Virus record (IMG/VR): IMGVR_UViG_3300007559_000008
Coordinates: 1 to 40,854 of that record
From: a virus
Length of the DNA stretch: 40,854 bases
Direction: 5' to 3' (one strand)
How positions within the stretch are numbered: the stretch's first letter is position 1; each line of letters opens with the position of its first letter. Below are positions 1,295 through 40,854 of this stretch, piece by piece. The translations under genes were made by a program, and so were the position numbers. The notes below the pieces were generated by a model. The model was not told the origin of the DNA and did not search any database. It saw nothing but the letters and a program-made list of their open reading frames with translations.

Positions 1295-1810
1295 ATGTCA
1301 GAGAATAAAGTACCTATTACACGTATCGGAAAGTTTTTTGGTTCCGAAGATTTCAACCTTGATATATCAATGGGTGAGGAATGGTTGTATGGTGATATGA
1401 ATTTCACTTTAGTTCTTTATCGTGTTGACAAACAGAAGACTAAGACAGATGATGTTTATGGTGAAACACTAACTGACGGTATTAAATTCTTACCACCCGT
1501 AGAGTTTAAAGGGTATGTTCAAGTTACTGCACCTGAGAATAAATATTTGGGTAACTCTAAAATACAACAATCTGAACCTGGTAATGTTAGAATATCGGTT
1601 TATCAAAGACAATTAGATGAATTAGAAATTGACATTAATTATGGTGATTACATTGGGTATTATGAAACCGAAAGCCGTGTTAGATACTACGTCGTTAATG
1701 ATGACGGAAGGGTTGTATCTGATAATAAACATACTTATGCTGGTTACAAACCATTTTATAGAACAATCAATGCTTCTCCTGTAACCAATAACGAATTTAG
1801 AGGATTATAA
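1295..1810 (+). CDS. Virion protein, possibly gp14-like neck protein
   Basis: A 171-aa acidic, beta-rich protein with no signal peptide or membrane segment. It heads a tight three-gene group whose third member looks like the gp15 tail terminator, and the sheath follows, so by position it fits a head-tail connector or neck protein. The segment GDYIGYYETESRVRYYVV followed by PFY resembles the layout of T4 gp14 (a GDxIYF segment, then PFYQLG), but the match is weak and the protein is shorter than gp14 (256 aa). The stop overlaps the next start (TAATG), implying translational coupling. There is no Shine-Dalgarno sequence. The assignment as a virion protein is reasonable; the gp14 identity is a guess. 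Confidence 0.5.
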   Translation: MSENKVPITRIGKFFGSEDFNLDISMGEEWLYGDMNFTLVLYRVDKQKTKTDDVYGETLTDGIKFLPPVEFKGYVQVTAPENKYLGNSKIQQSEPGNVRISVYQRQLDELEIDINYGDYIGYYETESRVRYYVVNDDGRVVSDNKHTYAGYKPFYRTINASPVTNNEFRGL

Positions 1811-3288
1811 TGAAATTTAGGATAACGGAACAACAAGCCAAAAGATTATTCGATAAGGTCGATGATAAAATCAAATGCTCAGAATGTGGGTGGAAATGGA
1901 GTTTATCTGATGGTGGTGATGACCCTTATGTTTGTCATGAATGTGGTCACGACAATGCCAAAAATGAATTTATCGGTAAACGAGTGATGGTTTATTATAA
2001 CCTACACAAACACACCTTCTCTGTAACATATAAGAGTAAGGTTATTTTACATGCCGACTATGTTAAACTTGGTGATGTTGAGTTCAGAGTTAGAAAAGGA
2101 GGTAAAGAACGTGTTAGAACAGAAATGGCTAAAAATGTTCACGCATTTGTTATTGGTAAATTATTAGATTATTGTCAGTATCCATGTGAAGATATTCCAC
2201 AAGAACCAAACAGTAATATCGTAACGTATAATCCTTACAAATATGATTCGTTTGTTTATAAGGATAGTGAACAACCTGTGCATAAAGCCAAAGAAGTTGA
2301 TATGGTTAACCTAAGAAATAAATTGTTTGTTATTTCTGAAGTTAGAAAGATTGACATTACAGAACAAGTTTCTGAAAGAGCAAATAGTTTTACTTATACC
2401 ACAATTGGTAAGTACGAAAAGTTTAACACGAGAAGATATTATTTTAATAACCCATTACCAGTACCAAGTAGTGACACCCCACAAGGTTTAGTTAGTATTA
2501 AAGGTGGTAACGGTAATTTTGTTTTTAATGAAGGTGACGTTAATTACGACCCCATTAAAAACAAGTTAAGTGTGGACATTTCAAAGTTTGACGAGAAATA
2601 CCCAAAATCAACTAAAACATCTGAACCTTCTAAAGTAGGGATAAATTCAACAAACATTAAAAAAGCGTTAGAATTAGCCTTCCCTGAAAATTGGCATCAA
2701 GAAGACGAAATATTCACACCTGGATTAAGAGATGTGTATACCATTGGTGAAAAACTTGGTGATGATGAATCTTGGTCGGTTCTAAATTATTTTGATACCA
2801 AAGACGAAATTCATTCGTTAATTTATTTGAAATATGCCGAGGAAAACACTGATAAAGATATTGTTGAGTGGATGGCGGATTTATTTAAAAATAATAAAGA
2901 ATACACAAAACTATTGGTTGATAGACAGTGGCAATCAATCGCCAACGGATTAAAACTTGAGAGGGATTCAGTAAACAACTTCTTAAAAAATATTGATACA
3001 GCAGATATTACATATTACCCACACGGGTCAAAGATGGATAGATGGGCGGGTGTCGATGTGACTATCAATGGTATTAACTACCAAATCAAACCACTCAAAT
3101 CTTATAACACTGAAGAGGGTATTACCATAGTTGATACTTATGGAATGAGAGATTACTCTAAGAAACCTAAAGTTGATAAGATAGCTTTCGCAAATCCAAA
3201 CAAAGTAATTGAGTTTGATAATAAAGATTACGATGTTATTAGTAAGAGTCGTGCCGTATTTAAACAAGAACCAAAAATAACGAAATAA
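1810..3288 (+). CDS. Zinc-ribbon protein with PD-(D/E)XK-like C-terminal domain
   Basis: A 492-aa protein of unknown function. It opens with MKFRITEQQAKRLF, a basic amphipathic start like those of head-targeted proteins in T4-type phages. A treble-clef or zinc-ribbon module follows, with cysteines 23, 26, 42 and 45 in two CxxC knuckles. The middle (about 55-270) is beta-rich and unrecognised. Near the C terminus, GVDV (D416) is followed nine residues later by QIK (Q425, K427). This spacing looks like the D...(E/Q)xK core of PD-(D/E)XK nucleases, though the first acidic partner is not obvious. It is coupled to the upstream gene (TAATG), and the next gene starts directly after its stop, so it is probably made with the neck and tail-completion proteins. 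It could be a packaged nuclease or a purely structural protein. Confidence 0.5.
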   Translation: MKFRITEQQAKRLFDKVDDKIKCSECGWKWSLSDGGDDPYVCHECGHDNAKNEFIGKRVMVYYNLHKHTFSVTYKSKVILHADYVKLGDVEFRVRKGGKERVRTEMAKNVHAFVIGKLLDYCQYPCEDIPQEPNSNIVTYNPYKYDSFVYKDSEQPVHKAKEVDMVNLRNKLFVISEVRKIDITEQVSERANSFTYTTIGKYEKFNTRRYYFNNPLPVPSSDTPQGLVSIKGGNGNFVFNEGDVNYDPIKNKLSVDISKFDEKYPKSTKTSEPSKVGINSTNIKKALELAFPENWHQEDEIFTPGLRDVYTIGEKLGDDESWSVLNYFDTKDEIHSLIYLKYAEENTDKDIVEWMADLFKNNKEYTKLLVDRQWQSIANGLKLERDSVNNFLKNIDTADITYYPHGSKMDRWAGVDVTINGINYQIKPLKSYNTEEGITIVDTYGMRDYSKKPKVDKIAFANPNKVIEFDNKDYDVISKSRAVFKQEPKITK

Positions 3289-4609: not shown

Positions 4610-7600
4610 ATGGCAACAAACAGTAAAGTATTCGTATCACCTGGAGTGTATACATCAGAAGTTGACTTAAGTTTCGTAGCTCAGAGTGTTGGTGTAACAA
4701 CGTTGGGTATTGTTGGTGAAACCTTGATGGGTCCAGCATTTGAACCAATCTTTATCACTAATTTCGATGAGTTTTCGACTTACTTTGGAGGAACTTCACC
4801 TGAAAAATTCATTAACACACAAATACCTAAATATGAAGCCGCTTATATTGCAAAGGCTTACTTACAACAATCTAACCAATTGTTCGTAACAAGAATCTTA
4901 GGTTTATCAGGTTATGACGCGGGACCATCTTGGTCAATTAGCATTAAGGCTAACGTAGACCCTTCAACAATTGATTTTTATTGTGAAGACCCTACGGTAG
5001 TTGATTGTCAACCAGCGTGTAATGACTTTTTAACTATAGACTTCGCAATTGATTTCTCAGGTTGTACAAATAGTCTTAACTCTATTGAGTTTTTAGACCC
5101 AAGTCAAATTCCTACGGAAATTGCTAGCAGAATTGATTTACCTTATGAATTGTTTAATGGTAGTACTAGTACGTTAAGAACTAACATGAATAATCAAATT
5201 TTTGATATCATGAACACACCATCAACTGAAGACACTTCAATCTATTACTACGGAGCGATTTCAGGAGATACTTATGAGGCTTTTGCACCAATATTCACAG
5301 CTGAAACTAACGTAATGGGTGTTGAGTCTATTGACGCATCACTTATTAATTACGCAGCACCACAAAACGACCCTTGGTACTACGCATTATTTGATAACTT
5401 AGGTAACGCGGCTTACACAGGTTATTCATTCTGGTCAATTGTTACAGGGTTAACTATGACACCTGTAACTACGACAACTACAGTAGCACCTGTTACTACA
5501 ACAACAACTACTGACCCTTGTGTAACACCTGGCCCAACAACTACTACAACTACAACAACTGCGGCACCTGTTAATTGTTATACAGGTACTTTAATTGGTA
5601 GGATTTATGTTTATTCAGGTACGGCTTACACCGACTACGATGACGTAGTTATTGCAACACTTCGTTCAAGAGGTTTGGCAACTTACGGTACTGACAATGG
5701 TGCTGTTTACGAAGTTTCAGGTTTAACCGATGTAACTATGGACTGTGTAGGTCAATACTCAGGTGTGACTAAAAACCCATATTCAACATTCGGATTAAAT
5801 GTGACTAATAAAGAAGGTAAACAATTCTTCTTTGAAACATCTTTCCAAAATTCAGATACACAATATCTACCTAAAGTATTTGGTTCATCAAACTTTGCAA
5901 AACCAAGAACAGTTGTTCCGTTATTTGTAGAAGAGAGATTCCAAGCAATGTTAAACTACGGATGGAGAAAAGGTTATGTTAGAGGTTTAAGTTGTGACTT
6001 AACCGCTCTACCTGACGCAAGACAAGGTAGTGACCCAACATCAATTGCATTCTACTTAGAACAATACCAATCACCGGAGACTCCATGGATTGTTTCTGAA
6101 TTACGTGGTAATAAAGTTTATAACTTATTTAAGTTTAGATTAATTTCTGATGGTGACGCGGCAAATACATTAGTTAAAATATCAATGGCTAACATGTCGT
6201 TCAATAACGGAACATTTGATATCTTAGTTCGTGACTTCTTTGATACAGACGCTAACCCTGTTGTTTTAGAGAAATTCACTAACTGTACTATGAACCCGAT
6301 GGAAAATTCATTCATCGCACAAAAAATTGGTACTGTTGATGGTGAGTACTTATTGAACTCTAAATACATTATGGTTGAGATGAACGAAGACGCTCCGATT
6401 GACGCACTACCTTGTGGTTTCGACGGATTCAACTTCAGAGAGTACGCAGGTGTTAAACCTCCGTTCCCAATCATTAAAAATAAATACGACTATCCTGGTG
6501 AAGTTGTTTACAACCCACCATTCGGTTTAGCTTCAGGTGCGGACGACGCAACTAGAAGTAACGGTGATAATGTACGTAGAACTTACTTAGGTATTTCCGA
6601 CACTATTGGTATTGACGTTGATTACTACTCTTATAAAGGTAAACAATTACCATTAGATATCTGTACAGATACTACAGGTGAACCTTGGAATTGGAGAAGT
6701 AAAGGTTTCCACATGGACGTTAACGCATCGGCAATTACAATTCCTGATGTATTTGTAACAAGTGGTACACCGGCATTCGTTTGTGGTGACGCACCATTTA
6801 TTCAAGACCCTGACAACTCTGAAAACCCATACTACAGAATTTACGCTCGTAAGTTCTCAGTATTAGCACAAGGTGGTTTCGACGGATGGGATATCTATAG
6901 AGAATATAGAACTAACACTGATAGATTTGCAGTTGGTAGAGCAGGTTACTTAAAAGGTGCATGTCCTTCAATTAAATACCCAACAGCAACAGGATGGGGA
7001 GCGTTCAAACAAATCACTGTTGGTGACGCAACTCAAACATTTGCAAATACTGACTACTACGCATACTTATTAGGTCAACAAACATTTGCTAACCCTGAAG
7101 CGGTTAACATCAACGTGTTTGTAACACCAGGTATTGACTACGTAAACAACTCAAACTTAGTTGAGGAAGCAATCGACATGATTGAAACTCAAAGAGCTGA
7201 CTCACTTTATGTGTGTACTACACCTGACTACAATATGTATGTACCTTCAAGTACTAACCCTCAAGATTTCATATATCCTCAAGAGGCGGTAGACAACTTA
7301 GATAACACTGGTATTGACTCTAACTATACCGCGACTTATTACCCTTGGGTATTGACTCGTGATAGTGTAAATAATACACAACTTTACTTACCAGCAACGG
7401 CTGAGGTTACAAGAAACTTAGCATTAACCGATAATATTGCTTACCCATGGTTCGCAACGGCAGGTTACACTCGTGGTATTGTAAACGCGGTTAAAGCACG
7501 TAAGAAGTTGACTCAAGAAGATAGAGACGTATTGTATCAAGGTAGAATTAACCCAATCGCAACCTTCTCTGATGTAGGTACTGTAATTTGGGGTAATAAA

Positions 7601-7939
7601 ACTCTACAAATTAGACAATCTGCTCTTGACAGAATTAACGTAAGAAGATTATTACTACAAGCTCGTAAGTTGATTTCAGCGGTTTCAGTTAGATTATTGT
7701 TTGAACAAAACGATGCTAAAGTAAGACAAGACTTCTTAGACGCGGTGAACCCTATCTTAGACGCAATTAGAAGAGACCGTGGTTTATACGACTTCCGTGT
7801 AACCGTATCTTCAGACACTGCTGACTTAGATAGAAACCAAATGACAGGTAAGATTTACATCAAACCAACTCGTTCACTTGAGTTTATCGACATCACGTTC
7901 TACATCACTCCGACAGGAGCATCTTTCGAGAACATCTAA
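4610..7939 (+). CDS. gp18: Tail sheath protein, gp18-like, with Thr-rich insert
   Basis: An 1109-aa contractile sheath subunit; T4 gp18 has 659. The N terminus (SPGVYTSEVDLSF, GIVGETLMGPAFEP, FGG) and the C terminus (YPWFATAGYTRGIV, RINPIATFSDVGTVIWGNKT, NVRRLLLQARKLIS, ending in FIDITFYITPTGASF) are the standard sheath signatures that form the conserved inner domains. The extra length is in the outward-facing middle. Residues 284-320 are two Thr-rich linkers, after which a beta-rich, Cys-containing insert (about 322-385) precedes the return to sheath sequence. The insert probably decorates the outer tail surface. A strong terminator follows the gene, and the leader is A-rich, as expected for a major virion protein. 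Confidence in the sheath identity is high; the insert's role is unknown. Confidence 0.95.
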   Translation: MATNSKVFVSPGVYTSEVDLSFVAQSVGVTTLGIVGETLMGPAFEPIFITNFDEFSTYFGGTSPEKFINTQIPKYEAAYIAKAYLQQSNQLFVTRILGLSGYDAGPSWSISIKANVDPSTIDFYCEDPTVVDCQPACNDFLTIDFAIDFSGCTNSLNSIEFLDPSQIPTEIASRIDLPYELFNGSTSTLRTNMNNQIFDIMNTPSTEDTSIYYYGAISGDTYEAFAPIFTAETNVMGVESIDASLINYAAPQNDPWYYALFDNLGNAAYTGYSFWSIVTGLTMTPVTTTTTVAPVTTTTTTDPCVTPGPTTTTTTTTAAPVNCYTGTLIGRIYVYSGTAYTDYDDVVIATLRSRGLATYGTDNGAVYEVSGLTDVTMDCVGQYSGVTKNPYSTFGLNVTNKEGKQFFFETSFQNSDTQYLPKVFGSSNFAKPRTVVPLFVEERFQAMLNYGWRKGYVRGLSCDLTALPDARQGSDPTSIAFYLEQYQSPETPWIVSELRGNKVYNLFKFRLISDGDAANTLVKISMANMSFNNGTFDILVRDFFDTDANPVVLEKFTNCTMNPMENSFIAQKIGTVDGEYLLNSKYIMVEMNEDAPIDALPCGFDGFNFREYAGVKPPFPIIKNKYDYPGEVVYNPPFGLASGADDATRSNGDNVRRTYLGISDTIGIDVDYYSYKGKQLPLDICTDTTGEPWNWRSKGFHMDVNASAITIPDVFVTSGTPAFVCGDAPFIQDPDNSENPYYRIYARKFSVLAQGGFDGWDIYREYRTNTDRFAVGRAGYLKGACPSIKYPTATGWGAFKQITVGDATQTFANTDYYAYLLGQQTFANPEAVNINVFVTPGIDYVNNSNLVEEAIDMIETQRADSLYVCTTPDYNMYVPSSTNPQDFIYPQEAVDNLDNTGIDSNYTATYYPWVLTRDSVNNTQLYLPATAEVTRNLALTDNIAYPWFATAGYTRGIVNAVKARKKLTQEDRDVLYQGRINPIATFSDVGTVIWGNKTLQIRQSALDRINVRRLLLQARKLISAVSVRLLFEQNDAKVRQDFLDAVNPILDAIRRDRGLYDFRVTVSSDTADLDRNQMTGKIYIKPTRSLEFIDITFYITPTGASFENI
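5459..5569 (+). repeat. Thr-codon repeat encoding two mucin-like linkers in the sheath
   Basis: Runs of ACN codons encode PVTTTTTVAPVTTTTTT, a short DPCVTPGP spacer and a second run of eight threonines before AAP. Codons are mixed (ACT, ACA, ACG), so the tract is only a partial DNA repeat, but it can change length in whole codons without breaking the frame. Such linkers are flexible, exposed segments. Confidence 0.8.
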
Positions 7940-12451: not shown

Positions 12452-15400
12452 ATGTCAGATAGTACGTTATCATTTGTTAATAGTTCCACATTCAGAAACT
12501 CTCTATTAGCCAAAAATTTGGAACCTTACGATGTGCCGGGTGTGTATACTCCACCAGGTGGTCCACAAGCATATGAAACTACACTATCATCGTTAACCGT
12601 TGTTGATTCACCTGATAATTTAATTACTGACGGAGTATTTGCTAACAATTTATATCCTTTAAATGAATTCGGTCCTAACGGTGGTTATAATACTAACATC
12701 ACATTCAACGGACCACCAATTCCTGTAAACTCAAATCAGGGGGAATACGACCCAACAGATACTGTACTTGATTTAGTAAACGAGTTTTATATTGATGCCG
12801 CTTACATTGAAAACAGATACGGTCCTGATGGTGGGTTTAATGATATGGTTATCATTACGGACATTCAGAATAATAATAAAATTTATCAGCCATATTGGAA
12901 TCCACCTTCTTACAATCCTTCATCTTATAGTCCTTACACTATATTAACAAGTCCTGACCCTGTCGGTTCAAACGGACCTTTGTCTCAGGATTCATATATT
13001 GCAAAAATAGGTGCCGAACAATTAAATAAGGCTTTCCAAGCTCGAGTTGACGCTGAGATTTTTCAAGCAACAATCGGAGCTGTTAATATTGATTCATTAA
13101 GTGACCCGTTTGAAGCAAGTTTAATTGCCACAGGACAAGAACCTTTAGTTTATAGAAATTGGAGAATTACGGTTCCTGAAAACCCTATTATTGCTGCAGC
13201 CGACTTTGCAACACGATTGGCGAGTGCTTATTGGCCTGTTTCACCAATTCCTGGTGATTATTTTGATGATAGTAAAGGTCAAAGTCAATCACCACAAACA
13301 TCATTAGCCTTAAACGTCACCAATCAATTAACGGGTGGATTCTTAGGACCAATTTTAAATTTCAGAAGGAATCCTTCAGAAATATTCATTGCCAACTCAG
13401 GTAACGGTCAAAGGTCGGCTCTATTCCGTAACATTAATTATAATAGATATCAACCTGGTTATGAATCTGTATTAGGTGGCGCTGCAGGTATCGTACAAGG
13501 TTTATCGTCACTCGCAACATCTATTATTAATCCTAATGGAACTTTAAATGGTGGTTATTATGTAGGTAGTAGAAATGCTGACCCATCAACAATTACCTCA
13601 CCACCAAACCAAATTCCTGTAAACCCTTATGGACAACAAGTTGAATCACCTGTTTATGGTCCATCTGAATTAGGTATTTTATATGAAGGAAACCAAGATA
13701 ATTTAAACTTTGGTTTAGCCGCCAAACCACTTTCTGATGGTGGTGGTATTGATGGTCAATTTGTTTGGACTTCGCCTAAATATAAAGGTAATGCAGGATT
13801 TAAAGCAACACCTGGTGGAGGAACAGGCTCACTAGACCAAGAATTTAATTTAATTAGTTCACAATACAGTCGTGACGAATCAACCAACTTCACATTCAAA
13901 GAAAACTCAATCTTAGACCAAACTCAAAGGTTAATTGATTCTGCCGACAATGTGACAGGTTTATCTCGTTTAAAACACGTAGGTAACGCAATGAACCAAG
14001 TTAGTAAAGTATTCCACGATGGTTACAAAGAAATGACTAAAGGTTCTCAAGTTGTGTCATATAAAGACGATTCAACGGGACAAGAGGCGGGTATTGAGTA
14101 TTGTCGTGTGTTCACTAAAGATACTCCTTACTATACTTATGCTGACTTACAAAAGACAGACGGTATTACTAATTCAGGACGTAGATTTGCTTGGTCTGTT
14201 TTTGATAATACATTTAACTTAAATATTGCCCCATTAAAGAACCCGGGTTCAACCAACATCATTCCAAATAATGATATGGGTCAAGGCGGTTATGCTAAAA
14301 AGTACATGTTCTCAATTGAAAATTTAGCTTGGAGAACATCAAGTAGACCTGGATTTACTTATGATGAATTACCTGTATGTGAAAAAGGTCCAAATGGTGG
14401 ACGTGTAATGTGGTTCCCACCATACGATATTAAATTCAGTGATTCTAGTTCAGCAAACTGGAATCAACAATCATTCTTAGGTCGACCTGAACCAATTTAT
14501 ACTTACAAAGACACTAGTAGAACAGGTAGTTTAAGTTGGAAAATGATTGTTGACCACCCGTCAATACTTAATGTGATTGTTGACAAACAGTTGAAGGGTA
14601 TTAATCGTGAGAAGTTAAATTCAATGATAGATTCATTCTTTGCGGGGTGTTTAAAATACGATATCTACCAATTAGCCCTTAAGTTTAACACAATACCTAC
14701 AAAAGATTTATATACCTATCAAGAGATATTAAATAACCCTAATCTAACCCCTGAAGAGGCTAAAGGTGTACAGGAAAATATTCCTAAACAAAATACTGGC
14801 GGTTTAACAGGACCTGGTTCAGACACTGGTGGTGATGGTAAAACTGATGTTAAGACAACTGAAGATACTTCAGGTAATGATGTTTTAAATAAGTTTAATG
14901 ATTTGGCATTTTATTTCCACAACGATAGACCTAACCCTCATACAGACAGGCCAACATCAACGATTGATTTTGTAACAAGTTTTAATTATTACAAAGATGT
15001 TGAGTACCCTAAGTATCAATCAAACGCTGACTCAATATTTAAACCCGACTCAACATATTGTAAGAAAAATCCGGCGTATTGTGCGGACAACAAGCCCGTT
15101 AATGAGTTTTGGAATAACGTTATTTTGGATAACTGGACATTTATCGACAACCCAACTGAGGGTTTGATTGAAGAAATACACAAACTTGTAACAACTAAGG
15201 ATGCTACGGTTGCTATAACACTTATAGGTTCCGCCTCAGCTCCCGCAGAAAAAAAATATAACGTAAATCTATCGTCAAGAAGGGTTGACTCGGTTAGACA
15301 ATATCTATTGACGGGTAAAGGGGGTAAACTTAAAGACTATACGAGTAAAATAACCATTAATGGTAAACCTCTTAACGAATCTTCAGGTCCAAGTTCTAAT

Positions 15401-17704
15401 ACCCTAGGTGAAGAAACTACGGTTGTACCCGTATCAGCAAAAACCAAAACATCTGGAAGAAGCGTTAATTGTACAACAGATATTATTGACGGCAGTACAG
15501 GTAAAGTAACATCTAATTCGCAGATTTATTCAATCGATGCGATGGCTTGTCGTAGAGTTAAATTTAGTGCTACAGTTACTATACCACCAAAACCTGTTAA
15601 TCCCACAGACCAAACAAATTCGGATAAACCTGAACAAACAAAAACTATTGAAACAACACTAATCACACCAACTAAACCAAAACCAACGGTTAGTATCGAG
15701 AAAAAACTTAAAGAAGGTATTGGTAAAAAGATTTTAAGACAATTATTATCTGAGTGTGATTACTTTGAGGTTATTAAGGAAGAGGTTCCGATGTTATACG
15801 ACTCTATTAGAGAGAAGATAAAGTACTTTAATCCCGCTTTCCACTCAATGACACCTGAAGGGTTAAACGCTCGTCTAACGTTCTTAAATCAGTGTGTTAG
15901 ACCTGGTGAAACCATTCCTGTAATTGACCCTGACGGTAAACCAAAATACGATAATGCGGTTAATACTTCGTTTGGAGCTCCACCAGTCTTAATCTTAAGA
16001 ATCGGTGACTTCTATAATGGTAAAATTATCCCTAAGAGTGTTGGTTTTACTTATGAACCATTAGTGTTTGATATGAACCCTGAAGGTATTGGTATCCAAC
16101 CTATGATTGCCAACGTTACCCTATCATTTGACTTTATTGGTGGTCACGGACTTGCCAAACCTGTTGAACAATTGCAAAACGCACTATCGTTCAACTACTA
16201 CGCAAACACTGAAATCTACGATGAAAGGTCAGTATGGACAGACGACTCATTCCAAAAAATTGACCAAGCTTTAATAAAAGAGTTGGTTCAAGATGTACCT
16301 CAAACAGGTTTAAGTGCTGTTGACAATCAAACACAAAATGCGTTTGGTGATACAATTGGTACTATTAAGAGTTATGATAATGTGACTGGTGGTCAGACAG
16401 GAGAAACATCTTATAATAAAATTATGGATGATATGTTAGGTGTTGTACCAGAATATACCGTATCCATTTTAAATAAATTGGAAAGTATTGTTAAACAAAC
16501 TAACTATGGTATTTTACAATTAGTTAATTATGAAAGAAATTATATAAATGGTCAAGTTGCGGGAAACGTTAATTTTAATCCTGTAAATACTTACGAAACA
16601 TTTCTTTATGGTAAACCAAAATTAGACGCTCCTAAATCATCAACCAATGGTTCCGACAGCAATTTATTTAAATCATTATTCAATCAATGTATTAAAGATG
16701 TTGAAATTAATGAAAACCCTATTGTAAAAGAATTATTAATTAATTACTATAACAACGAAGTTACTGATGAACTTAAAGTTATTAAAAAGAATATTAATAA
16801 TTTTTATGTTAAAATTAATGACACATTATCAAACGACATCCAAACAATCATTAGTGAAATTTGTGGTATTGAACAAACATTAATATTAAATATTAAGAAA
16901 TTAGAGTTATTAAATGGTACTACAACATTAGCCAATGCAAAACCAATTGATGGTAAAAAAACTGAGGAGGGAACGCCTTTAGTATACAACTTAAAAGGTA
17001 CCAATAAAGTTAGTAAAACTACTAAGGATTCTGATGTAACCAACACTTTACATGAATTACAAAGAGATATTTATAAAATATACACCTACTTAAGACGTGT
17101 TAATGTCTTATATACCGCAAAACCAGAAACAGGTACTGATTACGCGTCGACAGGTGCCCCATTAATGCCAGGGTCTATCCTGCCTTTTGCCGTGATAACA
17201 GATGGAACTGGTTCATCAGGGTCTAATTATTATTTAACTAATAATGAACAGTTTAGACCAATAGATAAAAGTTATTTAAATACTGAATATAGACAGAGAA
17301 TGTTTATGTTATTAGCTCGAACATTTGCCGATAAAAATAAATTAACCGAATTCAATAATTATGTTTTAACCAATAATTTAAAAGCTAGTAATAAGTTAAA
17401 AAATAAGTTTGAAAAAATTACTAAAGACATTGCAAATAATTTTGAAAAAGAACTTGAAAAAGAAGAAAAGTTATTTGAAAAATATCGAGACAGTAAAGTA
17501 TATAAAGATTTAACAGAAGGCTCCGAGGAAAAATTATACCCTTCAGGTAAAGAAAGAATTTTAGAATATTCAACAGTACCTGACGAGTCAACACAAGAAG
17601 ATTCTAAATCAAGATTAAAAGATTTATTTTCTGAAATAAACACGATAACGGATAATAAATATTTTATTCAGTCACCAACACAACACGCGGTAAAATTAAA
17701 TTAA
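12452..17704 (+). CDS. Giant baseplate/tail-tube junction protein with internal OmpA-like domain
   Basis: A 1750-aa protein. Residues 1-500 are low in charge and rich in Asn, Pro, Gly and Ser (repeated GPNGG/GPDGG). About 600-750 holds the block VMWFPPYDIKFSDSS, NWNQQSFLGRPEPIYTYKD and RTGSLSWKMIVDHPS, which recalls gp48/gp54-like tube-initiator proteins. Residues about 818-1010 form an OmpA-like domain: the first strand LAFYFHNDRPNP, then ITLIGSASAPAEKKYNVNLS followed by SRRVDSVRQYL, with the NxxLSxxR core intact. About 1080-1240 returns to a baseplate fold (ILRIGDFYNGKIIPKSV, then VTLSFDFIGGHG). The C terminus is charged and helical. I infer a baseplate component with a peptidoglycan-binding module. 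The next gene starts 1 base after its stop. Confidence 0.75.
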   Translation: MSDSTLSFVNSSTFRNSLLAKNLEPYDVPGVYTPPGGPQAYETTLSSLTVVDSPDNLITDGVFANNLYPLNEFGPNGGYNTNITFNGPPIPVNSNQGEYDPTDTVLDLVNEFYIDAAYIENRYGPDGGFNDMVIITDIQNNNKIYQPYWNPPSYNPSSYSPYTILTSPDPVGSNGPLSQDSYIAKIGAEQLNKAFQARVDAEIFQATIGAVNIDSLSDPFEASLIATGQEPLVYRNWRITVPENPIIAAADFATRLASAYWPVSPIPGDYFDDSKGQSQSPQTSLALNVTNQLTGGFLGPILNFRRNPSEIFIANSGNGQRSALFRNINYNRYQPGYESVLGGAAGIVQGLSSLATSIINPNGTLNGGYYVGSRNADPSTITSPPNQIPVNPYGQQVESPVYGPSELGILYEGNQDNLNFGLAAKPLSDGGGIDGQFVWTSPKYKGNAGFKATPGGGTGSLDQEFNLISSQYSRDESTNFTFKENSILDQTQRLIDSADNVTGLSRLKHVGNAMNQVSKVFHDGYKEMTKGSQVVSYKDDSTGQEAGIEYCRVFTKDTPYYTYADLQKTDGITNSGRRFAWSVFDNTFNLNIAPLKNPGSTNIIPNNDMGQGGYAKKYMFSIENLAWRTSSRPGFTYDELPVCEKGPNGGRVMWFPPYDIKFSDSSSANWNQQSFLGRPEPIYTYKDTSRTGSLSWKMIVDHPSILNVIVDKQLKGINREKLNSMIDSFFAGCLKYDIYQLALKFNTIPTKDLYTYQEILNNPNLTPEEAKGVQENIPKQNTGGLTGPGSDTGGDGKTDVKTTEDTSGNDVLNKFNDLAFYFHNDRPNPHTDRPTSTIDFVTSFNYYKDVEYPKYQSNADSIFKPDSTYCKKNPAYCADNKPVNEFWNNVILDNWTFIDNPTEGLIEEIHKLVTTKDATVAITLIGSASAPAEKKYNVNLSSRRVDSVRQYLLTGKGGKLKDYTSKITINGKPLNESSGPSSNTLGEETTVVPVSAKTKTSGRSVNCTTDIIDGSTGKVTSNSQIYSIDAMACRRVKFSATVTIPPKPVNPTDQTNSDKPEQTKTIETTLITPTKPKPTVSIEKKLKEGIGKKILRQLLSECDYFEVIKEEVPMLYDSIREKIKYFNPAFHSMTPEGLNARLTFLNQCVRPGETIPVIDPDGKPKYDNAVNTSFGAPPVLILRIGDFYNGKIIPKSVGFTYEPLVFDMNPEGIGIQPMIANVTLSFDFIGGHGLAKPVEQLQNALSFNYYANTEIYDERSVWTDDSFQKIDQALIKELVQDVPQTGLSAVDNQTQNAFGDTIGTIKSYDNVTGGQTGETSYNKIMDDMLGVVPEYTVSILNKLESIVKQTNYGILQLVNYERNYINGQVAGNVNFNPVNTYETFLYGKPKLDAPKSSTNGSDSNLFKSLFNQCIKDVEINENPIVKELLINYYNNEVTDELKVIKKNINNFYVKINDTLSNDIQTIISEICGIEQTLILNIKKLELLNGTTTLANAKPIDGKKTEEGTPLVYNLKGTNKVSKTTKDSDVTNTLHELQRDIYKIYTYLRRVNVLYTAKPETGTDYASTGAPLMPGSILPFAVITDGTGSSGSNYYLTNNEQFRPIDKSYLNTEYRQRMFMLLARTFADKNKLTEFNNYVLTNNLKASNKLKNKFEKITKDIANNFEKELEKEEKLFEKYRDSKVYKDLTEGSEEKLYPSGKERILEYSTVPDESTQEDSKSRLKDLFSEINTITDNKYFIQSPTQHAVKLN

Positions 17705-33878: not shown

Positions 33879-34337
33879 ATGGCAGATGGTTACACATATG
33901 GTATTAATTTTCCCTTCCGAGATTCTTTTGATGGAAAGTATTTAGATTTATCTGATTACACTGATGAAGAGATTAGGACTGATTTAGTTCACCTGATTCT
34001 TACAAGAAAAGGAAGTAGATATTTTTTACCTGATTTTGGGACTCGTTTATATGAATATATTTTCGAACCATTAGATGGACCAACATTTGCTGATATTTCA
34101 GCTGAAATTAGACAAGCCGTTGAGGATTATATGCCCAACTTAAAAATTACAAATATTAGTGTAACACCTGGTTCTGAGGGAGAAGAAAATAAGGGTACTT
34201 ATGTAAACGAAAATGACCAAAGAGAATTTAAGGTTACTAATATAAGTCAATTAGAACACACAGCAAAAATTAAAATTGATTATACAATAACTGATAGTGC
34301 TTTTAGTACGTCAGATTTTATAATCATCAATATTTAA
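33879..34337 (+). CDS. gp25: Baseplate wedge protein, gp25-like
   Basis: A 152-aa protein of the gpW/gp25 family (T4 gp25 132 aa). The core signature is clear: DLVHLILTRKGSRYFLPDFG, TRLYEYIFEPLD, then ISAEIRQAVEDYMPNLKITN with a closing beta section. In contractile tails this protein forms the first contact between the wedge ring and the sheath and tube, and is conserved even in type VI secretion (TssE). The EPR-like motif of the family appears here as IFEPLDG. It starts the second late block, 6 bases ahead of the gp6-like gene. Confidence 0.93.
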   Translation: MADGYTYGINFPFRDSFDGKYLDLSDYTDEEIRTDLVHLILTRKGSRYFLPDFGTRLYEYIFEPLDGPTFADISAEIRQAVEDYMPNLKITNISVTPGSEGEENKGTYVNENDQREFKVTNISQLEHTAKIKIDYTITDSAFSTSDFIIINI

Positions 34338-34343
34338 TAATAT

Positions 34344-36182
34344 ATGCCAAATAAGAAAATATCATATACAACTAGAGATTTCCAATCAATCAGGACTGAG
34401 TTGATTAATTTCACACGAACTTATTATCCTGAGACGGTTGACAACTTTAATGATGCGTCAGTATTCTCTGTGTTAATGGATTTGAATGCGGCGGTTACCG
34501 ATAACCTACATTATAATATTGATAGAAGTATTCAAGAAACGGTTCTCCAATATGCACAACAAAGGTCGTCAATATTTAACATTGCAAGAACCTACGGATT
34601 AAAAGTTCCTGGTATGAGACCATCGGTTGCGTTAGTCGATTTCTCAATCACAGTACCGGCTTTTGGTGATAAAGAAGATATTAGATATTGTGGTATTTTA
34701 AGAAGAGGTTCACAAATTAGTGGTGGTGGTCAAACATTTGAAACGGTTTATGATATTGATTTTGCGTCACCAATCAGTGGTGAGGGATACCCAAATAGAC
34801 TTAAGATTCCTAATTTTGATTCAAATAATAAGTTAATTAACTATACAATTGTAAAAAGAGAAACGGTAGTAAACGGGGTGACAAAAGTATTCAAAAGAGT
34901 AATTACACCTGTAGACGTTAGACCGTTTGTTGAGATATTCTTACCTGAAAAAAATGTTCTTGGGGTTACTAGTGTTTTATTGAAAGACGGAACACAATAT
35001 GCTAACGTACCGAGTACACAAGAGTTTTTAGGTTTAAATAATAGATGGTACGAAGTAAGTGCCTTAGCCGAAGATAGAGTCTTTATTGAAGACCCTACAA
35101 AGGTTTCTGACAGACCTGGTATTAAGGTTGGTCGTTACATTCAGGTTAATGATAAATTTATTACTGAATACACACCTGAGGGTTATATGAAAATGACTTT
35201 TGGTGGTGGTAGTCAATCGGCTGATGAACAATTAAGAGAATTTGCTAGAAATGGATATGTTTTAAACTTAAACAAATACTCAAATAACTTTGCTTTAGGT
35301 AGTGTTTTAAAGGCCAATACAACATTATTCGTCCAATACCGTGTTGGTGGAGGTACCGTAAGTAATTTGGGTGTAAATACAATTACTCAAATCGGAACAG
35401 TATCGTTTTTTGTTAACGGTCCATCAGAAAACGTAAACACAAGTGTCGTTAATTCATTACGTTGTACTAATGTAACCGCAGCTATCGGTGGGGCTAATTT
35501 CCCAACAACTGAAGAAGTTAGAAACTTAGTAGCGTTTAACTTCTCAGCACAAAACAGAGCGGTCACGATTAATGATTACAACTCATTAATCAGAACGATG
35601 CCATCACAATTCGGAGCACCTGCTAAAGTCGCGATTACCGAAGAGAATAATAAGATTAAGATTCAAATGTTATCTTATGACGAGAACGGTTCACTAACCG
35701 AGATTGTGTCAAACACACTTAAAAATAACGTGGCGAATTACCTATCAAATTACCGAATGATTAATGATTATGTTTCATTAGAAACTGCAAATGTTATTGA
35801 TTTGGGTATTAATATTGATGTTGTGTTAGATAATAGTCAAAATCAGGGTGCGGTTATATCACAATTGATTAATATAGTAACCGAGTTTTTTAGCCCATTG
35901 AATAGAGAAATGGGTGAGAACATTTTTGTCTCAGAACTAAGACGATTAATCCAAAGTGAAAACGGTGTTATTGCGGTATCTGATATGCAATTCTTCAACT
36001 TAGTTGGTGGTCAATATTCTTCATCACAAACATCACAGAAATATTTAGACCCCGTAACACGTCAAATTGAATTAATTGACGATACAATATTTGCACAACC
36101 AAACCAAATTTACCAAGTAAGATTCCCAAACAAAGATATTAATATCCGTGTTAAGAATCTTAAAACGGTTAATTTCTCTTGA
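34344..36182 (+). CDS. gp6: Baseplate wedge protein, gp6-like
   Basis: A 612-aa protein (T4 gp6 660). The start ISYTTRDFQSIRTELINFTR and the following DNFNDASVFSVLMDLNAAVT and DNLHYNIDRSIQETVL are the conserved N-terminal region of the gp6/gpJ wedge family. The middle holds the beta-rich arm (FGGGSQSADEQ, VQYRVGGGTVSN), and the region ITINDYNSLIRTMPSQFGAP is another family hallmark. In T4, gp6 forms the continuous ring of wedge dimers that opens during contraction. It follows gp25 as expected and ends in TGA, the only TGA among genes complete in this window. Confidence 0.93.
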   Translation: MPNKKISYTTRDFQSIRTELINFTRTYYPETVDNFNDASVFSVLMDLNAAVTDNLHYNIDRSIQETVLQYAQQRSSIFNIARTYGLKVPGMRPSVALVDFSITVPAFGDKEDIRYCGILRRGSQISGGGQTFETVYDIDFASPISGEGYPNRLKIPNFDSNNKLINYTIVKRETVVNGVTKVFKRVITPVDVRPFVEIFLPEKNVLGVTSVLLKDGTQYANVPSTQEFLGLNNRWYEVSALAEDRVFIEDPTKVSDRPGIKVGRYIQVNDKFITEYTPEGYMKMTFGGGSQSADEQLREFARNGYVLNLNKYSNNFALGSVLKANTTLFVQYRVGGGTVSNLGVNTITQIGTVSFFVNGPSENVNTSVVNSLRCTNVTAAIGGANFPTTEEVRNLVAFNFSAQNRAVTINDYNSLIRTMPSQFGAPAKVAITEENNKIKIQMLSYDENGSLTEIVSNTLKNNVANYLSNYRMINDYVSLETANVIDLGINIDVVLDNSQNQGAVISQLINIVTEFFSPLNREMGENIFVSELRRLIQSENGVIAVSDMQFFNLVGGQYSSSQTSQKYLDPVTRQIELIDDTIFAQPNQIYQVRFPNKDINIRVKNLKTVNFS

Positions 36183-36254: not shown

Positions 36255-39200
36255 ATGTCAAATTCATACAGAATAAGAACAAAACCCGGTGTTGACAGCT
36301 CAGTTAGAGTACTAATTGACCAAGAGTTTGAGTATCTTGAAATTTTATCACTTAAAATATTACAAAATCAAATCTATACTCGTCAGTGTTCTGACTATGG
36401 TGTTATTGTAGGTCGTGTTAGTGTAAACAACGGTTTCGGTATACCAAATGCCAAGGTTTCCGTTTTTATTCCGTTAGAGGATGTTGATGAAAATGACCCT
36501 GTAATTTCAGACCTTTACCCCTACAAAACATTAACTGATTTAAATGAAGATGGGTATCGTTATAATCTATTACCATACAAACAACAACACGGAGGTCATA
36601 CTGCAACAGGAACTTTCTTTACTCGTGAAGACGTTTTAACAAACCCAACATTAATTGAGGTTTATGACAAATACTATAAGTACAATGCCGTAACCAACGA
36701 GAGTGGTGACTATATGATTTTTGGTGTTCCTACTGGTTCCCAAACAATTGTGGTTGATGTTGACTTATCTGATATTGGTGAGTTTTCATTGTCACCACAA
36801 GATTTAATTAGAATGGGTGCTGCAACAGAAAACCAAGTCGCAGGAACCAAATTTAAAGCCTCAACTAATTTAAGAGAATTACCTCAAATCCTAACTTTTA
36901 CTCGAATCATTGAAGTTGAACCTTTATGGGGTCAGCCTGATATTTGTAATTTAGGGATAACAAGAACTGACTTTGATGTTAGTGATGAAACTAATATCAA
37001 CATTACACCAACAGCAATATTCATGGGGTCGTTGGTATCAAGTAACGACGACACCTATATTAAGAAGAACTGTAAGTCAAAACCAAGTGCAGGTGATTTA
37101 TGTAATTTAGTTACAGGTCCTGGCGAAATACTAGCAATTAGACAAACAATCCAACAGGATATTGACGGTAGACCAATATTGGAGAGTTTTGACTTAGACC
37201 AAGGTGGTCAAGTTATTGACGACAATGGTACTTGGATGACCGACGTTCCAATGAATATGGACTATGTTACGACTAATGAGTTTGGTGAAAAAATAATATC
37301 TTCAGACCCTAAAATTGGTATACCAACAAAATCTAAATATCGTTTTAAAGTTAAGTGGAACCAATCACCATCATTAGGTGCTGACCCAATTAAAAGAGGT
37401 TATTATTTAGTACCAAATATTAAAGAATATGGTTGGGAAGTTGATGTTGACCCATTAAATGACGGTTCGGCTAGTACAACTAACAAAGAAGCTGCTCAAA
37501 AATCTTATGCGTTTAGTTTAGATTGGAGTGACTACGGTGATACAGGAACAACGGTTGGACAACAGATGATTCAAGAAGCAATTAATTGTGATGATAGGTT
37601 TTTTGAAATGTCATATAATAAAGTTTACACTGTTTCACAATTAATTTCACAATATAGAAAGGGTTACGGTAATTCTAGAATCATATCCGTTAAAGATATT
37701 TTAAATTCTGAATGTCAAAGTGATAATAATAAATTTCCAACCAATGATGCTGTAAGACAATTTGATATCATCTTCTTATTGTTTCAAATATTTTCATTCT
37801 TAATGCTACCCGTGATTTATTCTTTGGTAATATTATCACATGTTTTAGCGTTTTTGTTAATATTAATTTCACCAATATTAGCTATTTTAGCAATAATTGT
37901 ATTCCCGTTTGTTTTATTAGTTTGTGGTATTAATAACGTGTTGGCGGCCTTATTCCCAAATAAATTTGACCATAAAGACTGCCCTAATTTAAAAGATTTA
38001 GGTGATACAATTAAAAAGATTTTTAACCTATATAAATTATTTACTACTATTCAGGTTCCTAATTTAGCGTACCCTGATTGTGAAATGTGTGACTGTGAGG
38101 TTGGTGTACCTACTTCATCTGAAGATGAGACTATAGGTGCCACAGGATTAGAATCAACTTATGCTGAGGCGGTAAATAACGGTGCTAACGCTGTTTTAAC
38201 ACCATTAGAAGCGGCTGATAGTTATGTTGAGAACGACCCGTTATATATCACTGACGGTAATAGTTATGAGAAATTATTTGCGGGAGCTCTTATGGGTGTT
38301 CCAGGGTCAACAAATTACCCTCTAAAAGCTCAAACAAGGGCACCACAAGTTCAATTATTAACTACAGGAACTACGTTGACTTCTATATTCACATCAAGTT
38401 TACCAATTTACGAAAGAATCAACTTATTTAATACCAAAGCAAAATATTTTGATAGTTCACCAACAAATCCTGGTGGTGGTGTAAACAGAATTAAGGTTTC
38501 ATTTAACACGGCTAATAATGTTTATCACTATGATAATGTTATTATGTTAATGGTTAAACCTGATAATAGTAGTGTTTATCAGTCAGGTAATATCGTAACA
38601 TTCCAACAACCATCGTTAAGTAGTGACTCAAACATAACAGGATATACAACTATAAATCAATTTGGTACTACGAGTATTACTGGTACAACTATTAACAACT
38701 CTGGTGGTACTATAACGGTTCAGTATGCTGATTATAGCAACCCGAACAATCTATTGACCCAAACATATACAAGTCAACAAAACCCGAATGATTCTGTTTA
38801 CGCAAGATTCCCTATGGACATCGAGTATTTTCAAGTAGTTACGGGTATGACTTATTCTGAATTTAATTCACAATGTAGTGTAACCCCAAATACCAACTCA
38901 TTAAATGAAAGATTCTTAAAGAATACAATGAATGTTTATAAGTTTACAAGAACTGAAACGAATAATAGTTGTGGTTCAGGTATTTTAAATTCATTAAATT
39001 ACAATCAGCAAAATCAATTGGTGTCACCACTAACCGCATTGACTAACTACGAAAATCAAAAAATCGTTTTCTTAGTTAGAGGTGTTGACCCTAATACCAC
39101 AAGACAAACATGTTCATACGATTTAAGTTTATTGTTTGGTTACAATGCGTTTGATGAACCTGGTTACACAGTTACAGGTCAATATAAATTAAATCATCCT

Positions 39201-40854
39201 GTTAAACCAGGGTTTAAAAATACCCAACATAATATTGGTTCTAACACAACTTTAGACTCATATAGTAACAACTATCTATATCACGATTCATATCACTTTT
39301 TACCATCATCTGTGGGTAATGCGTCATTCAGTTCTTTTACTTCTAATATGGTGTCACATTATTCGTCGTTAGACTCTAATAACGTTGGATTTGTACCACA
39401 ATCGGGTATGCCGACAGTGTCATCAGGTTTTACAGCAACTGTTAATGGACTTAAGGTAAAACCAAACAATATGTATACTCGTGAATATACCAACTTAACA
39501 GGTGATACTTACACACAAAATACTACAAACAATCGTGGTTATTTTGATAATGAAGTTGTCGAGGGTGGTAGCGGATTGTATGGTAAGATGCCAACGTCAT
39601 TCCCAATCTGTGGAAGTGTTTTAACCGGGTTATTTCAGGGTAATCCATTCTTATCAATATATTATTCCCCTGCGTACCCAACATCAACATCATTAACATA
39701 CGGATTAGGTGGTTCTGGTAATCAAATAGTAATGAGGTCTGATAGATTACCAACCTCAAGTGTTAGACAGGATAATATTAACAATAGTTTTCCTTTACAA
39801 TCTAACCTATATTTTTCAGTATTCCAAATCAATGAGGACGGAACTTCAGTGTCTTATGTTAGTCAAAATCCCGTAATTGCGTCGACGGCTTCACAAGATA
39901 ACCAAGAAGACCAACCAAGTTCAGTTAGTTCTGAATTATTCAATAGTTTTAATTGTGGTAGTATGATACCACTTGGTTGTTATAAAGAAGCCCCTGATGG
40001 TACCATGTATATCGCACCTGAAGGTGATAATTGTTACAAAGCTTTAGGTGGTAAACCTAAAATGATTAATGGTTGTTACAATTTAGTTTCGTTTATTTTT
40101 GTATCATTACCTAGCGATATAATATCTATTACGGAATGGTTATCAAGATTAACAATTAATTTTGCGGCTTGTCGAAATGTGTTTGGTCACTTATTCACTA
40201 ATAACTGGATTAACGGTGTTTTATACTCGTTTAGTTTTAGAAATGATGCGGTATATTCATCACCCACATCAGCAAATCCCAACCAATTAATCTCAACAAA
40301 TTATTGTAAAGATGTTGTGACACTACACCCAACAACTAATTTCTATTATAGAAGTAGTCCGTATTTGGTGACTAATAACTCATTTATCGGCAAGAAGAAC
40401 CCAACGGGATTCTTCGGGTCGTTTAACGGTAATGAGTATAGCTTACAATTCCCGACTACAATGATGGATTTGGGTCCAAGAGCGGATTACTTACAAGATA
40501 TTATTTTATCTGATGGTTTTGACGGTTATGTTGCTAATAAATTAAATAACACGAGTTATTCTGATGTTAGTGATGTATTAAACTTATTTGTGATTACTCG
40601 TTTAGCAAACACTAACTTCTTAAGTCAGTTAGTTGGTGCTGGTAGTATTGGTAAGTTTTTTAGTCGACCTAATAATATGGTTGATGCGGATTATGCACAA
40701 TCAATATCTGTTAACTCTGAAATCGGTGTTGCACCTTTTGAATCGGGTAATTATACACAACCTAATCAAATTTATGTTAACTCACTTGCGGGTCCAAATA
40801 ACGAAGCTTTATTTGGTATTTTCTTTACAGGTGACACACAGGTTAGGGACTACA
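36255..40854 (+). CDS. Giant tail/baseplate protein with membrane-like segment, 3' end outside the window
   Basis: The frame is open from ATG 36255 to the window edge: 1533 complete codons and no stop. It takes the position of T4 gp7 (after gp6) but is already longer than gp7 (1032 aa). About residues 50-145 form a carboxypeptidase-regulatory-like beta sandwich (VIVGRVSVNNGFGIPNAKVS ... TNESGDYMIFGVPTG). Residues 503-566 are almost wholly hydrophobic, enough for about three membrane helices (IIFLLFQIFSFLMLPVIYSL and on), and are followed by a cysteine cluster (PDCEMCDCE, about 606-614). The rest is Asn/Thr/Ser-rich and beta-like; near the end, WINGVLYSFSFRNDAV, FPTTMMDLGPRADYL and DGYVANKLNNTSYSDVSD look like a conserved structural domain. 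It is probably a wedge or fibre-network protein; the membrane-like segment has no explanation in known wedge proteins. Confidence 0.8.
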   Translation, partial: MSNSYRIRTKPGVDSSVRVLIDQEFEYLEILSLKILQNQIYTRQCSDYGVIVGRVSVNNGFGIPNAKVSVFIPLEDVDENDPVISDLYPYKTLTDLNEDGYRYNLLPYKQQHGGHTATGTFFTREDVLTNPTLIEVYDKYYKYNAVTNESGDYMIFGVPTGSQTIVVDVDLSDIGEFSLSPQDLIRMGAATENQVAGTKFKASTNLRELPQILTFTRIIEVEPLWGQPDICNLGITRTDFDVSDETNINITPTAIFMGSLVSSNDDTYIKKNCKSKPSAGDLCNLVTGPGEILAIRQTIQQDIDGRPILESFDLDQGGQVIDDNGTWMTDVPMNMDYVTTNEFGEKIISSDPKIGIPTKSKYRFKVKWNQSPSLGADPIKRGYYLVPNIKEYGWEVDVDPLNDGSASTTNKEAAQKSYAFSLDWSDYGDTGTTVGQQMIQEAINCDDRFFEMSYNKVYTVSQLISQYRKGYGNSRIISVKDILNSECQSDNNKFPTNDAVRQFDIIFLLFQIFSFLMLPVIYSLVILSHVLAFLLILISPILAILAIIVFPFVLLVCGINNVLAALFPNKFDHKDCPNLKDLGDTIKKIFNLYKLFTTIQVPNLAYPDCEMCDCEVGVPTSSEDETIGATGLESTYAEAVNNGANAVLTPLEAADSYVENDPLYITDGNSYEKLFAGALMGVPGSTNYPLKAQTRAPQVQLLTTGTTLTSIFTSSLPIYERINLFNTKAKYFDSSPTNPGGGVNRIKVSFNTANNVYHYDNVIMLMVKPDNSSVYQSGNIVTFQQPSLSSDSNITGYTTINQFGTTSITGTTINNSGGTITVQYADYSNPNNLLTQTYTSQQNPNDSVYARFPMDIEYFQVVTGMTYSEFNSQCSVTPNTNSLNERFLKNTMNVYKFTRTETNNSCGSGILNSLNYNQQNQLVSPLTALTNYENQKIVFLVRGVDPNTTRQTCSYDLSLLFGYNAFDEPGYTVTGQYKLNHPVKPGFKNTQHNIGSNTTLDSYSNNYLYHDSYHFLPSSVGNASFSSFTSNMVSHYSSLDSNNVGFVPQSGMPTVSSGFTATVNGLKVKPNNMYTREYTNLTGDTYTQNTTNNRGYFDNEVVEGGSGLYGKMPTSFPICGSVLTGLFQGNPFLSIYYSPAYPTSTSLTYGLGGSGNQIVMRSDRLPTSSVRQDNINNSFPLQSNLYFSVFQINEDGTSVSYVSQNPVIASTASQDNQEDQPSSVSSELFNSFNCGSMIPLGCYKEAPDGTMYIAPEGDNCYKALGGKPKMINGCYNLVSFIFVSLPSDIISITEWLSRLTINFAACRNVFGHLFTNNWINGVLYSFSFRNDAVYSSPTSANPNQLISTNYCKDVVTLHPTTNFYYRSSPYLVTNNSFIGKKNPTGFFGSFNGNEYSLQFPTTMMDLGPRADYLQDIILSDGFDGYVANKLNNTSYSDVSDVLNLFVITRLANTNFLSQLVGAGSIGKFFSRPNNMVDADYAQSISVNSEIGVAPFESGNYTQPNQIYVNSLAGPNNEALFGIFFTGDTQVRDY

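Follow-up and report, generated by a model that had tools for sequence, protein, structure and literature searches.

A constant membrane-like helix in a giant protein encoded beside the baseplate genes of uncultured T4-like phages

The window analysed here, i.e. the whole stretch of viral DNA of 40,854 nucleotides, carries genes for tail sheath and tail tube proteins and for a baseplate hub protein of the T4 type, and therefore belongs to a T4-like phage with a contractile tail. At its right-hand end two baseplate wedge genes are followed by a very long open reading frame, the product of which we refer to as the giant protein. The features of this region are listed below, with residues numbered along the giant protein and pLDDT values taken from the AlphaFold2 (AF2) model described later.

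33879..34337, + strand: gp25-like baseplate wedge protein (Pfam GPW_gp25, 5.9e-13; phrog_261, 7e-17)
34344..36182, + strand: gp6/J-like baseplate wedge protein, adjoining the giant gene upstream (phrog_219, 5e-21; Baseplate_J, 6e-7)
36255..40853, + strand: giant protein ORF, with an ATG start and open to the window end; 1533 aa visible
36255..37649, + strand: strongly conserved beta-rich N-terminal region, residues 1-465 (column identity 0.62-0.83 to residue 400; AF2 pLDDT mostly 80-94)
36678..36758, + strand: weak carboxypeptidase-regulatory-like match, residues 142-168 (PF13620, below the curated cut-off)
37650..37760, + strand: linker predicted to be flexible, residues 466-502 (pLDDT mostly below 50)
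37761..37952, + strand: hydrophobic segment, residues 503-566 (hydropathy; AF2 helix 505-566, pLDDT 84-93)
37767..37868, + strand: constant core helix, residues 505-538 (gapless in 126 sequences; polar stripe 507/511/518/522/529/536)
37839..37841, + strand: His529 in the hydrophobic helix (invariant, 126/126 sequences)
38079..38096, + strand: CxxCxC cluster, residues 609-614 (Cys in 126, 125 and 123 of 126)
38352..40853, + strand: conserved C-terminal region, residue 700 to the visible end (family alignment)

The window end cuts off the C-terminus of the giant protein. By comparison with a homologue that is 92% identical and 1688 aa long (L001), the full-length protein would be about 1690 aa, and the homologues that bear a stop codon are about 1555-1942 aa long. 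Hydropathy gave no hydrophobic signal sequence at the N-terminus. An earlier reading, made from the sequence alone, had proposed a carboxypeptidase-regulatory-like domain in this part of the protein. A PF13620 match does recur here, in 37/40 family members with a best E of 1e-4, but the window copy scores 19.2 bits against a cut-off of 32.3 and the domain is therefore weakly supported. The linker contains three residues that are invariant in the family alignment (C487, P495 and D498), and the Cys cluster that had been noticed after the hydrophobic segment is real (C609, C612 and C614) and nearly invariant in the family. From residue 700 onward the protein is without recognised relatives, with no PDB match and no general PHROG match. 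Outside the cluster many more cysteines are invariant or nearly so (C45, C231, C273, C283, C445, C487, C1234, C1242, C1260, C1274, C1306 and C1351), and such a high count is unusual for a phage tail protein.

The gene order around the giant protein is constant in related IMG/VR contigs: gp6 is encoded directly upstream in 195/195 loci with room for it, and the same protein of ~600 aa (p598) is encoded downstream in 166/166 loci; in both counts, a locus retrieved repeatedly was counted each time. From this gene order we infer that the giant protein is present in the virion. On one 272-kb contig a 308-aa ORF lies between gp6 and the giant gene (L070:7006-7929); it has one N-terminal hydrophobic segment and weak alpha/beta-hydrolase matches.

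The family set comprised 372 ORFs, collected by a first search and by four viral-contig searches with divergent members (contigs fetched again were counted again), and identity to the window copy over the N-terminal 480 residues was as low as 51%. A tblastn search of phage isolates, queried with the window protein as well as a distant homologue, returned no family member, and GTDB bacterial and archaeal genomes searched with the giant family and with gp6 returned no match. Profile searches did not find the family in Pfam, PHROGs (stray matches only) or the PDB. What has been defined is therefore a large protein family that is absent from these three collections and from the phage isolates searched. 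The only named homologue found, by Foldseek against BFVD, was A0A8S5LA66 of Myoviridae sp. ctPuP5 (E 1e-48, 33% identity, 622 columns); it is homologous to the giant protein, but is itself an uncharacterised metagenomic protein and gives no function.

The sequence-only reading had centred on a nearly unbroken hydrophobic stretch in the giant protein, judged to be long enough for about three membrane helices. The long stretch itself was borne out by a shuffle test, in which residues 502-568 were far more hydrophobic than chance: the best 64-residue window has a mean Kyte-Doolittle value of 2.42, compared with 0.73 +/- 0.17 in shuffled sequences (n=2000, shuffle maximum 1.35). Kyte-Doolittle windows of 19 aa with values of at least 1.6 cover residues 499-568 and reach a maximum of 3.16. 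Among the other 21 main ORFs in the window, only that of the ribonucleotide reductase small subunit reaches 1.6, and it does so marginally (1.77); by the same measure no other tail ORF of the window has a comparable segment. Hydrophobicity was measured with Kyte-Doolittle values and a biological insertion scale. Simple position-independent insertion-energy sums were unfavourable (0.4 to 3.3) for most 19-residue windows inside the conserved core; in the window copy, favourable values were confined to about residues 525-558.

The segment is present in 361/361 homologous ORFs from viral metagenomes that reach the region, i.e. the search for homologues lacking it returned none. Column identity within the segment is 0.20-0.43, as against 0.62-0.83 over the first 400 residues of the protein. 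As the segment is always present yet low in identity, it is hydrophobicity and not sequence that is kept. In an alignment of 126 non-redundant members, columns 505-538 form a gapless core of 34 residues with a median Kyte-Doolittle value of 2.4, in which 61 members have no charged residue and 35 have one (i.e. none or one in 96/126). Within this core Pro519 is found in 104/126 members, and position 518 is Thr, Arg or Lys in 88 of 126 (R or K in 48/126). Throughout the core the family-mean hydropathy follows a periodicity of 100 degrees per residue (p = 5e-5, position permutation), and one face has positions 511, 518, 529 and 536 no more than 10 degrees from its centre. The core is thus a helix that is hydrophobic on most faces and has one polar stripe with His529; judged from the alignment, the hydrophobicity of the other faces would be the pattern of a membrane bundle, not that of a soluble coiled coil.

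An FPTND motif precedes the segment and a VPxLxYPxCxxCxC motif follows it. Beyond residue 538 the clades diverge: in L282, L287, L260 and L350 the hydrophobic stretch stops almost at once and others add further hydrophobic stretches, with the result that the total hydrophobic length varies from about 40 to about 129 residues between clades. About three helices is therefore a description of the window copy rather than of the conserved unit, since only a single stretch of ~34 residues is constant and in the minimal members the hydrophobic part ends soon after it. The observation of a membrane-like segment is confirmed, in a form that is sharper and more general than first described.

We modeled the giant protein as a monomer with AlphaFold2, using the alignment of 126 sequences (mean pLDDT 78.7, pTM 0.64). 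In the model residues 1-465 are mostly confident and beta-rich, residues 466-502 are mostly below 50, residues 505-566 form one continuous helix at pLDDT 84-93, and a second short helix follows at 579-590. The hydrophobic segment is therefore predicted to be a separate helix behind a disordered linker, and not a core enclosed by a soluble domain, with the proviso that burial by other chains is outside the reach of a monomer model. Foldseek matches of this model in the PDB were to pilins, adhesins, teneurins and pneumolysin; their TM-scores were low, and we rejected them as homologues and read them only as an indication of a beta-rich, sandwich-like fold. An AlphaFold model from 40 sequences was of low quality (pLDDT 54), and its Foldseek output was disregarded except for the match to A0A8S5LA66, which was sequence-driven.

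From its position, the first guess for the giant protein was gp7. T4 gp7, a known wedge component (PMC3004832), is likewise large, encoded directly after gp6 and in possession of one hydrophobic stretch. This assignment was rejected, as hhalign against T4 gp7 gave a probability of at most 0.2% and a separate gp7-like gene lies downstream. The downstream gene was found with a gp7 core HMM built from gp6-proximal proteins of Flavobacterium phage immuto, Microcystis phage Mel-JY01 and the uncultured phage LR756508. These phages have the nearest relatives of the gp6 of the window and encode their large proteins a few genes after gp6; the large proteins have no hydrophobic segment, and are gp7 counterparts and not kin of the giant protein. 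In nine related contigs the HMM matched the fifth gene after the giant gene, with E down to 2e-12, whereas the giant protein scored E 1.2 or worse. Since the gp7 counterpart lies five genes downstream, the giant protein is an additional protein and not gp7.

The hydrophobic stretch of T4 gp7 is annotated as a predicted integral membrane domain (GenBank AF158101 gene 7), but it is shorter and weaker than that of the giant protein and unrelated to it in sequence. It does qualify the earlier statement that wedge proteins normally contain no such segments, which is not wholly so given that T4 gp7 has a conserved single hydrophobic stretch. At residues 877-909 of T4 gp7 (L082:7061-10159) the hydrophobic pattern HPVGFGF...LLT.FIN is conserved with four divergent homologues.

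Tape measure proteins, e.g. that of lactococcal phage TP901-1, resemble the giant protein in being large tail proteins with hydrophobic stretches sufficient for several membrane helices. TP901-1 no longer infects once the first of these hydrophobic regions has been deleted from its tape measure protein (PMC5099701), which is a precedent for the role proposed below. The membrane-like segment of the giant protein would fit this class, but its position and its beta-rich model do not: it is encoded after gp25 and gp6 (195/195), outside the tube/tape-measure block, and it is largely beta-rich (residues 1-465 as modelled) whereas tape measure proteins are mostly alpha-helical and elongated. It also has no sequence match to them. 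We consider the giant protein to be a probable membrane-active tail protein that is neither a tape measure protein nor gp7.

The passage of DNA across the cytoplasmic membrane is poorly understood for contractile-tail phages, and structures of T4 show its tape measure protein as disordered (PMC5099701, PMC3004832). For the giant protein, the sequence-only reading had envisaged a segment that stays concealed within the particle until contraction of the tail lets it insert into the host membrane. That interpretation is partly supported, in that neither the search for homologues without the segment nor the model of its surroundings counts against it. We tentatively propose, with confidence somewhat short of even, that the giant protein belongs to the tail and that its helix goes into a membrane of the host, probably the cytoplasmic one, while the genome is being delivered. 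The myovirus lineage in question is T4-like and uncultured, and the protein would be a large component of its tail, distinct from gp7, gp25 and gp6; the conserved beta-rich N-terminal region would probably attach it to the baseplate. Several copies of the hydrophobic helix may associate via the polar stripe that contains His529 and would be shielded in the virion. After sheath contraction the helices would insert into the host cytoplasmic membrane, where they could either anchor the tail tip or line the path of DNA entry. Counting against membrane entry are the length of the continuous helix, as 34-62 residues exceed one bilayer crossing (about 20 residues), and the mostly unfavourable insertion-energy sums within the core. 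We regard it as rather doubtful that a widespread lineage of T4-like phages penetrates the inner membrane by means of a dedicated protein from the baseplate locus, distinct from both gp7 and the tape measure protein, with a ring of long hydrophobic helices, each bearing the invariant His on its polar stripe, that inserts on contraction and forms or gates a DNA channel. The universally conserved membrane-like helix and its invariant His make the question of DNA delivery testable by mutation in any cultured member.

The same helix could have other uses. Baseplates are multi-chain assemblies and a monomer prediction is blind to burial between chains, so the helix might oligomerise into a hydrophobic core inside the baseplate or tail, without ever meeting lipid. 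The conserved hydrophobic stretch in T4 gp7, a wedge component, would be in keeping with this, though GenBank describes that stretch as a predicted membrane domain. We consider such burial rather unlikely, as across 126 homologues the core helix is hydrophobic on almost every face, the segment evolves fast in sequence, and a range of about 40 to about 129 hydrophobic residues between clades is hard to fit to a fixed core. The clade-to-clade variation in the number of extra hydrophobic helices would suit a generic anchor, i.e. a helix that ties nascent baseplates to the inner membrane of the producing cell while tails are being assembled and has no role in DNA delivery; this is the membrane that any hydrophobic segment synthesised in the cytoplasm would encounter by default. 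However, the particle would then need to be freed from the membrane before release, and anchoring does not call for a regular polar stripe that includes an invariant His, which leaves this explanation unlikely in our view.

It is more improbable still that the giant protein is not a virion part, but a phage membrane protein that acts in the infected cell (in lysis, superinfection exclusion or envelope remodelling) and merely happens to be encoded in the tail operon. The lack of a recognised tail domain in Pfam or PHROG searches would be consistent with such a role. Against it are the invariant place of the gene between gp6 and the downstream tail-locus genes, the large size, a beta-rich architecture of the kind usual in phage tail proteins, and the absence of an N-terminal hydrophobic signal sequence.

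Elsewhere in the window, the tail sheath protein (4610-7939, 1109 aa) has a very large N-terminal extension, as its best PHROG sheath match covers only about residues 815-1107. In the tail block a 1750-aa protein (12452-17704) has an OmpA-like match at residues 898-970 (E 4e-5, 24.3 bits against a cut-off of 27.2), which may mark a peptidoglycan-binding domain in a tail protein. A 492-aa protein encoded close to where the tail block begins (1810-3288) contains a domain that matches the mycobacteriophage L5 gp82 family (Pfam 1.3e-29).
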